From Patescibacteria group bacterium (lineage in GTDB: Bacteria; Patescibacteriota; Dojkabacteria; JAKAPS01), in NCBI GenBank assembly GCA_025450075.1, contig JANWIC010000003.1, positions 1 through 32,799 on the forward strand: a stretch of DNA of 32,799 nt. The letters are read 5' to 3'. Positions 13,123 through 20,331 of this stretch are shown in pieces (position 1 is the first letter of the stretch; every line of letters starts with the position of its first letter). The position numbers and the translations under genes were made by a program. A model generated the notes under the pieces. The model was not told the origin of the DNA. It did not search any database and was given only the letters and a program-made list of their open reading frames with translations.

Positions 13123-15549
13123 ATGGTCCCAACGCAACAGGTATTAAATAATGGATTAACATTTGATATTGGCTCGATACTTTTTGGCATTTTTGTGCTT
13201 GTAATTTTCCTTGCCATTGTAGGTATTATCTTTCTTATCGGCATTCTTATCCTGCGGAATATAAGGGATTCGACCCGAAAAGAAAAAAGAAACAACTTAA
13301 TTCTTTGTGAAATAACTCTTCCAAAAGAAAATGAGATTGAGATAAATGCTGCCGAACAGATGTTTGCTAACCTATATAGTATAGGAAAAGATTCATTTAA
13401 AGAGAAATTGGTAGGAGATTATGATTGTGTTAGTTTTGAAATTGTCGCACTTCCTGAATCTATAAAGTTCTATGCAGCTATGCATGACGGATTGCGCGAT
13501 TTAGTTGAAACACAAATACATGCTTCGTATCCTGATGCTGAGATAAAAGAAGTAAAACAATACAATCTTTTCCAAGATAACAGCCATGTAGAATATGCTG
13601 AATTGCAACTTGCAAAAGATACATATTTCCCAATTAGAGATTATGAAGACTTAAAAGTTGACACAATATCTGCAATTACAAACTCAATGAGCAAGATAAA
13701 GGAGGGGGAGAGCTTGGCAATGCAGGTAATTATCACACCTTCTGACGGTAAATGGAGAGATAAAGGGAAAAAATATGTCCAAAATCTAGAAAAACCTGGA
13801 AGTGAAGACCATCCAAAACCTCCAGCAGATGGAAAAATAACCGAAGGAATAAACAAAAAAATCGCAAAGTTGGGATATGTTACAGTTATCCGATTAATAT
13901 CTTCCTCTGTTGATGAACACATGGCAAAAACCCATTTAAGTAACATGGTGGGGGGATTTTCTCAATTTTCTGATCCGGCATTGAATAAGTTTAAAAGAAG
14001 GAAACTACGATGGTGGGATGAAAAGGAGTTTATCGTAGCATTCACATACAGACATACTCCAATCCTTAATTTCTGGCCTTTTTATAAAAAGACAATTTTA
14101 AATACAGCTGAACTTGCAAGTATCTTCCATTTTCCAAACAAAAATGTACAAACTCCTCATATCCATTGGCTAAATGCCAAGAGATCTTCAGTAAGTGAAG
14201 AAATACCTACAGAAGGACTTTATCTTGGAGAAGCAGTATTTAGAGGAAAAACAAGAAAAGTCGCAATGCTTGAAGATGATAGAAGAAGGCATATGTATAT
14301 AGTTGGAAGAACCGGAACAGGAAAATCTACATTACTGGAAAAGATGGCGCTTCAAGATATTAAGGCAGGAAAAGGTGTCGCATTTATTGATCCCCACGGA
14401 CAGTCTGCAAGAAACATTCTTTATCGTATACCCCCTGAAAGAGCTGAAGATGTTATATATTTCAATCCTGGTGATACTGAGCGACCAATGGGATTTAATA
14501 TCCTTGAGTGGAATACAGAATATGATAAGCATCTTATCGCAAATGCATTTTATGCTCTTCTCGAGAAGTTATTTGATCCAAACAAAACGGGTATTACCGG
14601 CCCTCGTTTAGAGCGCGCTGTCAGAAGCGCTTTGCTTACCGCTATGGCAAAAAAGGGAAACACACTTATTGAGGCATTACGACTTATTCTTCTTGATAAA
14701 GCATTCATTAACGAAATGCTCAAATACCTGGATGATGATATCGTTCGGAAGTATTGGACAGAAGAAATCGCCCAAACGAGCGATTACCATAAATCAGAAA
14801 CTCTGGGATATTTTGCCTCGAAATTCGATAGGTTTGTAGTAAATAAGCTGATGAGAAATATTCTCGGTCAAAGTGTCTCCTCGTTTAATATGAGGCAAAT
14901 TATGGATGAAGGGAAAATCTTGCTTATCGATCTTGATAAAGGTGCAGTTGGACAAGAAAATTCTCAATTTCTTGGGCTGCTTTTAGTCCCGAAGATTCTG
15001 CAGGCAGCATATAGTAGAACCGATCTTCCTGAAACAGAACGAAAAGATTTCTATCTCTACGTTGATGAATTCCAAAATTTCGCTACAAATGATTTTATGC
15101 ATATTATGTCTGAAGCTCGTAAATATCGTCTTAACCTTATTGTTGCAAACCAGTACATTACACAAATGACCGAAGAAGTAAGAAATGCTGTATTCGGAAA
15201 TGTAGGAACATTAGCATGTTTTAAAGTAGGTGCAGATGATGCTGAGTATCTGGAGAAAGAATTTGCCCCTACTTTTACAAAGCAGGACCTTATTAATCTA
15301 GAGAATAGGAATATGTATATAAAGATGTTGGTTAAAGGTGAACCTATGCCTTCCTTCTCGGTAGATACGACTTGGGATATTGAAAAACCAAATTATGAAA
15401 TAGGGGAGTCAATAAAGCAACTTTCACGTATACGTTATGGAAGAGATAGAGAAGCTGTTGAGGCAGAAATTAAACAACGAAATGAAGTTGCTGCTGTACC
15501 TCCACCACCAAAACCAGGATCCTTATTCCCGCCCATTGCAAATTATTGA
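13123..15549 (+). CDS. VirD4/TraD-like type IV secretion ATPase
   Basis: 808 residues. One N-terminal membrane helix (about 16-46), a domain of about 330 residues typical of CPR homologues with no named fold that I recognise, then a RecA-like motor. The motor has Walker A GRTGTGKST (395-403), followed by GVAFIDPHGQSARNIL, and the Walker B/DEFQ box LYVDEFQNFA (about 644-653) with the downstream LIVANQYITQM. This is the HerA/VirD4/TraD coupling-protein family, hexameric DNA or protein pumps at the inner membrane. The C-terminus is Pro-rich. No relaxase or VirB4/VirB6-type gene is in view, so its partner apparatus is unknown; the pilin-like genes at the start of the window are candidates. The gene ends with TGA, which rules out the TGA-Gly code of some CPR phyla. 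Confidence 0.85.
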   Translation: MVPTQQVLNNGLTFDIGSILFGIFVLVIFLAIVGIIFLIGILILRNIRDSTRKEKRNNLILCEITLPKENEIEINAAEQMFANLYSIGKDSFKEKLVGDYDCVSFEIVALPESIKFYAAMHDGLRDLVETQIHASYPDAEIKEVKQYNLFQDNSHVEYAELQLAKDTYFPIRDYEDLKVDTISAITNSMSKIKEGESLAMQVIITPSDGKWRDKGKKYVQNLEKPGSEDHPKPPADGKITEGINKKIAKLGYVTVIRLISSSVDEHMAKTHLSNMVGGFSQFSDPALNKFKRRKLRWWDEKEFIVAFTYRHTPILNFWPFYKKTILNTAELASIFHFPNKNVQTPHIHWLNAKRSSVSEEIPTEGLYLGEAVFRGKTRKVAMLEDDRRRHMYIVGRTGTGKSTLLEKMALQDIKAGKGVAFIDPHGQSARNILYRIPPERAEDVIYFNPGDTERPMGFNILEWNTEYDKHLIANAFYALLEKLFDPNKTGITGPRLERAVRSALLTAMAKKGNTLIEALRLILLDKAFINEMLKYLDDDIVRKYWTEEIAQTSDYHKSETLGYFASKFDRFVVNKLMRNILGQSVSSFNMRQIMDEGKILLIDLDKGAVGQENSQFLGLLLVPKILQAAYSRTDLPETERKDFYLYVDEFQNFATNDFMHIMSEARKYRLNLIVANQYITQMTEEVRNAVFGNVGTLACFKVGADDAEYLEKEFAPTFTKQDLINLENRNMYIKMLVKGEPMPSFSVDTTWDIEKPNYEIGESIKQLSRIRYGRDREAVEAEIKQRNEVAAVPPPPKPGSLFPPIANY

Positions 15550-15574: not shown

Positions 15575-15586
15575 TTATTCCGTTAT

Positions 15587-15660
15587 GGACCAGTAGCTCA
15601 GTCGGTTAGAGCACCGTTCTTATAAAGCGGGGGTCGATGGTTCGATCCCATCCTGGTCCA
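15587..15660 (+). tRNA. tRNA-Ile with UAU anticodon
   Basis: 74 nt with a complete cloverleaf. Acceptor GGACCAG/CTGGTCC; D arm GCTC/GAGC; anticodon stem CCGTT/AGCGG with one G-U pair; T arm GATGG/CCATC with loop TTCGATC; discriminator A; no encoded CCA. The seven-base anticodon loop is CTTATAA, so positions 34-36 read TAT, which pairs with AUA (Ile). Most bacteria read AUA with a CAU tRNA modified to lysidine by TilS; a UAU isoleucine tRNA is uncommon. AUA codons are frequent in the genes of this window. Confidence 0.9.
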
Positions 15661-15689
15661 TGATTAATTCTACTAGGGTTGATATAGAA

Positions 15690-18238: not shown

Positions 18239-18267
18239 TTGAAAAATCATCACTTGGATGGTATAAT
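18239..18267 (+). promoter_or_regulatory. Promoter of the T-box/thrS unit
   Basis: TTGAAA (18239-18244), a 17-nt spacer, TATAAT (18262-18267), also TGG-extended. The predicted transcription start is about 18274. Confidence 0.75.
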
Positions 18268-18273
18268 GCAAGC

Positions 18274-18489
18274 ACTGGGACGAGAAGGAATACTGATCAT
18301 GAACAAGGGAAGAAGGGAGAGTGAGACCCTTCATGCATGTTAAGTATTCGAAGGACCACCCGGCGCAGATATTCTGCAAAATAGAATATTGAGTGCATAA
18401 GGCCATCCTTATGAATCAAAGTGGAACCACGCAAATGCGTCTTTGAATAAGAACAGATTTTATTCAAGGGCGCATATTTTATTTTATAC
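18274..18489 (+). promoter_or_regulatory. T-box riboswitch leader of thrS
   Basis: The leader has the parts of a T-box. Stem I is closed by CTGGG/CCCGG (18275-18279 with 18359-18363), has an internal loop whose 3' side is GAAGGACCA (18350-18358), a GAATACT/AGTATTC helix, and an apical GAAGGG/CCCTTC hairpin. Two hairpins follow: ATATTCT/AGAATAT (18369-18389) and CATAAGG/CCTTATG (18396-18413). The T-box core is AAAG-TGGAACC-ACGC...GCGT-CTTT (18418-18444), an antiterminator with a 7-nt bulge whose TGGA can pair with an uncharged tRNA ending UCCA. The competing terminator pairs 18435-18450 with 18460-18475 (16 bp with G-U pairs) and is followed by a U-rich tract. The threonine codon ACC at 18355-18357 is the likely specifier. 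Confidence 0.88.
18435..18486 (+). terminator. T-box terminator hairpin (alternative to the antiterminator)
   Basis: ATGCGTCTTTGAATAA (18435-18450) pairs along its length with TTATTCAAGGGCGCAT (18460-18475) using a few G-U pairs, loop of 9 nt, followed by ATTTTATTTTAT. Its 5' arm includes GCGT-CTTT, which is also the 3' arm of the T-box antiterminator, so the two folds exclude each other. Confidence 0.85.
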
Positions 18490-20331
18490 ATGATCTTTAT
18501 GAAAACAGAAGAACAGCTTAAAAACATGCGACATTCGGGAGCACATTTATTGGCAGCCGCTGTAACACATCTTTATCCAGGTGTAAAACTTGCCATTGGA
18601 CCTGCCATCGATTCCGGTTTTTATTATGATTTTGATTTTGGGGAAACAAAAATATCAGAAAAAGATTTCCCGAAGATTGAGAAAGAAATGAATAGATTAA
18701 AAAAACAAGGCTTAAAGTTTGAAAAAGTAGAAATGAGCATTGACGAGGCAAAAAAATTCTTGAAGGAAAACAGCCAGCCTTATTCGCTTAGCTTGCTTGA
18801 AGATATTGAACAATTCGGCAGTACTGTAAAAGGAGAACAGGATACAAAAAAGAAAAAACAAAACAGTGATATCGTTACCTTCTTCAAAAATGGAGATTTT
18901 ATGAACCTTTGTCGTGGTGGCCATGTTGACTCATTTGCTGAAGTTGGCGCTTTTACTTTAACCTCAATTGCAGGTGCATATTTCAGAGGATCGGAAAAGA
19001 ACCCAATGTTAACAAGAATATATGCAGCATGTTTTGAAACACAGGAAGAATTAGAAATGTATCTGCAGATGCAGGAAGAAGCAAAACGTCGAGACCATAG
19101 AATACTTGGTCCTGCATTAGGAATTTTTATGTTTTCAGATGAAGTTGGATCAGGACTTCCATTGCTTCTTCCAAATGGAGAAACCCTAAAGCATATCCTT
19201 ATGGAATATATGCGAAAAGAAGAAGAGAAGCGAGGATATGTCTATGTATCAACTCCGGTTATCGCACATGAAGAATTATATAAACGATCAGGTCATGCCC
19301 AATACTATCATGACGATATGTATAACTTTACGGATAAAGAAGGGACTCGCTTTTATATAAAGCCAATGAACTGCCCTCATCATCATATGATATTTGAAAA
19401 ATTAATCAGAAGTTACCGAGATCTTCCTATACGTCTTGCGGAAGCAGGTGCTGTATACCGTAATGAATTATCTGGTACATTAACCGGTCTTATACGAGTA
19501 AGAGGACCGATTACTCAAAATGATTCTCATATTTATGTCCGTCCTTCCCAGCTTTCAGAAGAATTCTATGCGGTATTGGATTTATTCAGAAGTGTTTATG
19601 AAAAAATGGGGATTAAAGGTTACTGGTTTAGACTTTCTTTACCGGATTTTGATAATGGTAGTGAAAAATATGGTGGAGATAAAAAGAAATGGGAAGTAGC
19701 ATCTGAAGCGATTAGGAATTCATTAAAGAATTTCGAAAAAGACTGGAATGTACATTTTGTTGAAGCAGAAGGAGAGGCAGCATTTTATGGCCCAAAGCTT
19801 GATATCCAGATTAGAAATGTGACAGGTAAAGAAGATACGATTGCAACCAGCCAAGTAGATATCCTTGTTCCTGAAAGGATGGATATTACATATATTAATG
19901 AAAAAGGTGAAAAAGAGTATCCGATCATCATTCACAGGGCTATTCTGGGCTCCTACGAGCGGTTTATAGGCTTCATGATTGAACAGAGTGGTGGAGAGTT
20001 CCCTTTCTGGATGGCGCCTGTACAAATTGGCATAATTCCGGTAAATGATGAATATGTTGCATATGCAATGCAGATTGCAGATGAGCTCAGGAAACATGGG
20101 CTTCGGGTTCATGTCGATAAGAGCGCTGAAAGTGTCAGTAAAAAAATTAGAAATGCTGCTTTACAAAAGATTCCAGCTAAGATAGTGATTGGGGAAAAAG
20201 AATTTGCAAAATCAAAAGAAATGATGATGAGTGTAAATTGGAGAAAGGATTTAGAAGGACAAAGCGGAGAACTATTGGCAATCTCGCAATTAATTGAAAT
20301 CTTTTCCAAGTTATCTGAAGCAGAAAACTAA
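18490..20331 (+). CDS. thrS: Threonyl-tRNA synthetase lacking the N-terminal TGS domain
   Basis: 613 residues from ATG 18490; ATG 18499 is an equally possible start and there is no Shine-Dalgarno. The protein starts directly in the editing domain (RHSGAHLLAAAV with the HxxxH pair, later NLCRGGHVD) and lacks the roughly 60-residue TGS domain seen in most bacterial ThrRS. The class II catalytic core follows. Zinc ligands are the Cys of MNCPHH, the His of TQNDSHIYV and the His of IIHRAILGSYERF. Motif 2 is RVRGPITQNDSH, one residue longer than the usual RVRGFTQDDAH. Motif 3 is ILGSYERFIG. The anticodon-binding domain is at the C-terminus (APVQIGIIPVNDEY onward). It charges tRNA-Thr. It is controlled by the T-box leader and overlaps the convergent recombinase gene by 4 nt. 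Confidence 0.95.
   Translation: MIFMKTEEQLKNMRHSGAHLLAAAVTHLYPGVKLAIGPAIDSGFYYDFDFGETKISEKDFPKIEKEMNRLKKQGLKFEKVEMSIDEAKKFLKENSQPYSLSLLEDIEQFGSTVKGEQDTKKKKQNSDIVTFFKNGDFMNLCRGGHVDSFAEVGAFTLTSIAGAYFRGSEKNPMLTRIYAACFETQEELEMYLQMQEEAKRRDHRILGPALGIFMFSDEVGSGLPLLLPNGETLKHILMEYMRKEEEKRGYVYVSTPVIAHEELYKRSGHAQYYHDDMYNFTDKEGTRFYIKPMNCPHHHMIFEKLIRSYRDLPIRLAEAGAVYRNELSGTLTGLIRVRGPITQNDSHIYVRPSQLSEEFYAVLDLFRSVYEKMGIKGYWFRLSLPDFDNGSEKYGGDKKKWEVASEAIRNSLKNFEKDWNVHFVEAEGEAAFYGPKLDIQIRNVTGKEDTIATSQVDILVPERMDITYINEKGEKEYPIIIHRAILGSYERFIGFMIEQSGGEFPFWMAPVQIGIIPVNDEYVAYAMQIADELRKHGLRVHVDKSAESVSKKIRNAALQKIPAKIVIGEKEFAKSKEMMMSVNWRKDLEGQSGELLAISQLIEIFSKLSEAEN

Follow-up and report, generated by a model that had tools for sequence, protein, structure and literature searches.

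T-box riboswitches are known mainly from Firmicutes, with few examples in Actinobacteria, Chloroflexi, Deinococcus-Thermus and Proteobacteria, the last with two, and they are generally gained and lost independently of the gene that they precede (PMC2494555). Four classes have been described, among which class II is glycine-specific and carries a single-stranded linker, and class III is short and mostly translational (PMC10482949). No report of a T-box in the candidate phyla radiation (CPR, Patescibacteria) was found in the searchable literature, a scope that leaves out most subscription journals and all bioRxiv preprints; a few CPR sequences that score above the family cut-off may already be in Rfam. 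The leader of thrS described here, which lies in a contig of a Patescibacteria genome, seems to represent a mechanism known from elsewhere, for which the sequence features give firm support, in a lineage where it is apparently undescribed and with several departures in architecture. The original prediction, made from the letters of this DNA, had called T-boxes chiefly a feature of Firmicutes and Actinobacteria; Firmicutes are indeed the main source, but the list was too short, since Chloroflexi, Deinococcus-Thermus and two Proteobacteria were already on record (PMC2494555).

A covariance search with the Rfam T-box model RF00230 matched positions 18262-18447 of the window (the whole stretch of DNA analyzed, 32,799 nucleotides) with 50.8 bits and a genome-wide E-value of 1.5e-10, or 7.2e-9 when the same match was assessed against all Rfam families. 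A significant score with this model had been named beforehand as a check, and it was obtained, though under the Rfam gathering score for the family, which is 93 bits. Because the match falls below that score, the element goes unlisted when the window is scanned with Rfam at default settings and stays out of routine annotation. Among the control genomes, the search found matches in Bacillus subtilis, Lactococcus lactis, Corynebacterium glutamicum, T. composti and D. chartae and none in E. coli, Bacteroides, Thermotoga or the archaea. All of the parts of a T-box leader that had been predicted upstream of thrS are present in the predicted order (Table 1), including a promoter, two hairpins between Stem I and the antiterminator, and a TGGAACC bulge inside the antiterminator. 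The sequence that holds Stem III fits the RRRNG-StemIII-AA motif (described in PMC7778990).

Table 1. Features of the thrS leader and gene, in window coordinates.
Feature	Position	Strand	Basis
Sigma-70-like promoter, TTGAAA-17-TATAAT, TG preceding the -10	18239..18267	+	Consensus scan, 11/12 matches
Stem I, long form	18272..18366	+	RF00230 alignment, fold, checked coordinates
Stem I lower helix	18275-18279/18359-18363	+	RF00230 alignment, fold
Stem I middle helix	18288-18293/18344-18349	+	RF00230 alignment, fold
Stem I distal hairpin	18312-18332	+	RF00230 alignment, fold
Specifier codon ACC (Thr), then A18358	18355..18357	+	Aligned to RF00230 specifier region
Reduced Stem II, plain 9-bp hairpin without S-turn	18368..18390	+	Fold; RF00230 deletions and mismatches here
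GAGUG, Stem III (18396-18413), AA	18391..18415	+	Sequence; fits RRRNG-StemIII-AA
Antiterminator helix enclosing the T-box bulge	18416..18446	+	RF00230 alignment; -6.7 kcal/mol alone
T-box bulge UGGAACC (TGGAACC in DNA)	18422..18428	+	Sequence
Intrinsic terminator, 18 pairs and AUUUUAUUUU	18435..18485	+	Terminator scan; -21.3 kcal/mol
thrS, threonine--tRNA ligase	18490..20331 (start may be 18499)	+	TIGR00418, 585 bits, cut-off 383.65

The promoter would place the transcription start at about 18274, so that Stem I should lie at or near the 5' end of the RNA, and the RNA element ends at about 18485, immediately ahead of the ThrS start. The leader folds more stably than expected (z = -4.85, with none of 200 shuffled sequences equally stable), and it holds one terminator where 0.2 would be expected by chance. 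The terminator hairpin spans 18435-18475 and is followed by the tail ATTTTATTTT, in which the U tract is interrupted. Its first 12 nucleotides (18435-18446) are also part of the antiterminator, making the two helices mutually exclusive; the competing terminator of the original prediction was thus found, with 18 pairs in place of the 16 proposed. Forcing the antiterminator costs 15.5 kcal/mol over the whole leader, as judged from folding energies. Long as it is, Stem I does not follow the family model throughout. The 5' side of its specifier loop reads AGAA, as against the AGUA expected, a canonical K-turn at its base is unrecognizable, and its distal part, where class I has a double T-loop motif, is only partly aligned to RF00230, is two positions shorter and gives a partial match to the tRNA-elbow motif.

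The features that would contact tRNA agree with the tRNA genes of the same genome. Those for tRNA-Thr, located with ARAGORN, have the anticodons GGU, UGU and CGU, the first of which complements the ACC specifier that had been proposed for Stem I. The first A of the UGGAACC bulge predicts a tRNA with discriminator U, as the original prediction had stated, and in all three tRNA-Thr genes the acceptor stem is followed by a U, which pairs with the UGGA bulge. The same correspondence holds at the other T-boxes of this genome, where a UGGA bulge at glyS accompanies a tRNA-Gly with discriminator U and UGGC bulges at aspS and trpS accompany tRNA-Asp, tRNA-Asn and tRNA-Trp with discriminator G. Elsewhere in the window (15586-15661) lies a gene for a tRNA-Ile whose anticodon is UAU. 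Both CAU tRNAs of the window are called Met, and a search of the genome found no further CAU tRNA; because of this combination, AUA codons may be read without lysidine in this organism.

Taken with the match to RF00230, these features make it very probable that the leader works as a T-box riboswitch and controls thrS by transcription attenuation through uncharged tRNA-Thr. RNA initiated at the promoter would fold Stem I, where the ACC specifier would pair with tRNA-Thr at its GGU anticodon. An uncharged tRNA-Thr, with its 3' UCCA free, could pair with the UGGA bulge and stabilize the otherwise weak antiterminator, so that RNA polymerase would read through into thrS; with a tRNA-Thr that carried threonine, the 18-bp terminator would form and transcription would stop. 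Production of ThrRS would in this way be tied to a low level of charged tRNA-Thr. The binding of tRNA, the effect of its charging and the regulation of thrS by the leader in the cell are what we infer from the arrangement of the sequence.

The departures from the family model are what an alternative of low probability would build on, namely that the T-box has decayed, remaining recognizable in sequence after its response to tRNA was lost, and that the leader now does no more than terminate constitutively or attenuate weakly. Stem II is reduced, the K-turn is missing, the score is low and the element is absent at thrS of close relatives. The specifier, bulge, Stem III motif, antiterminator and terminator are nevertheless intact and match the genome's own tRNA-Thr, and one would not expect permanent termination ahead of an essential gene to be maintained. 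Ribosome-mediated attenuation, in which translation of a short leader peptide and not the binding of tRNA would choose between terminator and antiterminator, can draw on a 14-codon reading frame at 18299 (MNKGRRESETLHAC) and is highly improbable: this frame has a single Thr codon and sits within Stem I, grounds on which it was rejected, and a leader peptide would leave the UGGA bulge and the specifier unexplained. In E. coli, autoregulation of thrS acts at translation. Control of that kind, by ThrRS itself at a tRNA-like operator, shares with the present case the gene and a structured leader and has next to no likelihood here, where the covariance match is to a T-box and an intrinsic terminator, in competition with an antiterminator, closes the leader.

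Read as a T-box, the thrS element can be compared with three of the described classes. Compared with class I, the B. subtilis tyrS type that RF00230 represents, its Stem II is plain and lacks the S-turn, Stem IIA/B is missing according to both the fold and the RF00230 alignment, the K-turn cannot be recognized and the score is far below the cut-off. The absence of an S-turn and of Stem IIA/B is unusual in a T-box that is not glycine-specific, and because of the former the element is filed as a T-box and not as a typical member of class I. It resembles class II, the glyQS type, in having a long Stem I and no Stem II with an S-turn, but it is threonine-specific and retains a hairpin where class II has a linker. 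Its long Stem I also sets it apart from class III, the Nocardia farcinica ileS type, to which the elements at aspS, trpS, glyS and ileS in this genome, like many in the phylum, bear more likeness, sharing with it a short Stem I and a specifier in the hairpin loop.

The assignment of the contig bears on whether T-boxes belong to this lineage at all. The genome, 93.5% complete, has 25 contigs that add up to 1.11 Mb. Its 16S rRNA gene lies on the window's own contig and, in a tree of only ten sequences, groups with Ca. Peribacteria and Ca. Moranbacteria at a 98/99 split, on the other side of which are E. coli, Victivallis, an actinomycete and a Thermoanaerobacterales MAG. Loss of ribosomal protein uL30 is a CPR trait. 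The protein is missing in this genome, 92 of 96 genomes in the phylum lack it too, and it is present in 13 of 14 control genomes. The grouping of the contig's own 16S gene and the missing uL30 mark it as a genuine Patescibacteria contig, in agreement with the CPR-like origin first suggested. A binning error was rejected as an explanation, as the 16S gene shares its contig with the thrS T-box. The same contig carries a predicted TraD/VirD4-like coupling ATPase (window 13123-15549).

The T-box had been proposed either to extend the range of tRNA-sensing regulation or to indicate transfer. Matches to RF00230 (E <= 1e-3) in 128 of 380 genomes of the phylum bear out the first of these and exclude an isolated transfer; only 13 lie above the cut-off. 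Downstream genes, named by NCBIfam and Pfam scans of representatives and by BLAST to them, include the synthetase genes ileS, valS, thrS, proS, glyS, aspS, trpS, hisS, alaS, lysS and argS, as well as argG, argH, trpE, trpB and proB. An element with an AUC specifier in Ca. Moranbacteria CG_4_8_14_3_um_filter_41_13, for example, lies ahead of a gene whose reading frame marks it as ileS-like. Hairpins with a U tract occur in 87 of 134 hits overall, compared to 14 in shuffled sequence. The variable base of the bulge follows the downstream gene, with a mutual information of 1.21 bits over the 106 hits that have an assigned gene, against a mean of 0.36 and at most 0.56 bits in 2000 shuffles, the hits not being independent because related genomes share elements. 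This base is A in all seven thrS-assigned T-boxes (UGGA, the window's included), A in 6/6 at glyS, G in 2/2 at hisS and U in 30/30 at ileS. Some elements stand apart: two from separate genomes of one genus (L222 and L260) have an apparent CGC (Arg) specifier and sit ahead of a small ORF and a gene for a Y-family DNA polymerase, those of two related genomes (L053 and L055) precede aspartoacylase-like genes, and an ileS T-box with an AUC specifier at L325:1862-2010 (minus strand), unlisted by RF00230, has the bulge CGGUAC instead of UGGUAC.

Among the six thrS T-boxes outside this genome, ACC followed by A was seen by eye near the expected place in five; the exception, L220, stands >1.2 kb upstream of thrS, a gene that it perhaps does not control. 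No T-box is visible by eye in the 420 bases upstream of thrS in six genes from the same order and one from the same family, whose ThrS proteins are 48-64% identical to that of the window. Because these relatives keep a similar ThrS without the element, the thrS T-box is apparently not conserved in close kin and would have been gained or lost independently of its gene.

Five T-boxes were found in this genome with RF00230 (thrS, trpS, aspS and a tandem pair before glyS), and a sixth, at C11:18561-18709 before an ileS-like gene named from its reading frame, was found with a lineage model, R1, giving six elements on five genes. The glyS pair (L049:7376-7662; G000 C21:27376-27662, minus strand) consists of two elements that lack Stem II; each carries GGC in the loop of a short Stem I and has a terminator-like sequence of its own. 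At aspS (L048:7672-7826) the specifier is AAC (Asn); since, in addition, no AsnRS reaches its cut-off in this genome, tRNA-Asn may be a further substrate of AspRS. At aspS, glyS and ileS in this genome, and not at thrS, the specifier lies in the loop of a short Stem I.

Twenty such short elements, chosen by hand from the phylum, were aligned with a de novo consensus structure, in which 24 of 26 pairs show changes on both sides and 92.4% of cells pair, compared to 65.8% in shuffles; the covariation score was 0.769 vs. 0.26. The codon expected from the downstream gene often occupies the hairpin loop (AUC at ileS, GUC at valS, GAC or AAC at aspS, UGG at trpS and GGC at glyS). A simple hairpin finder, which misplaced many elements, placed it in 20 of 41 candidate hairpins, compared to a mean of 5 and at most 13 with shuffled labels. 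Of 37 hand-picked short elements, 23 have a hairpin with a U tract by a script that missed some evident terminators, and several others do by eye. The short-form model, R1, matches 166 of the 380 genomes, with any long T-boxes among its matches counted in. It also matches Bacillota, where the 12 best loci, when read, proved to be parts of T-boxes with a long Stem I. Seven actinobacterial matches have, by eye, a short Stem I and no U-tract terminator. The short CPR elements are like the actinobacterial translational T-boxes in Stem I and specifier, but they mostly end in intrinsic terminators, in contrast to class III, which is mostly translational (PMC10482949). On balance, it seems reasonable to propose that CPR bacteria use T-boxes widely and that their common form lies outside the four-class scheme, joining a class III-like short Stem I to a transcription terminator, serving many amino acids (Ile, Val, Asp, Asn, Trp, Gly, Thr and probably Arg) and reduced, at the extreme, to glycine elements of ~125-145 nt without Stem II.

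According to this survey, most T-boxes of the phylum are hidden by the Rfam score cut-off. The short transcriptional forms are possible minimal models for T-box action. Gene regulation in CPR bacteria is hardly known, and these organisms often obtain amino acids from others. If the present reading is true, amino acids would be sensed by the direct binding of tRNA in a phylum whose tiny members probably depend on hosts.
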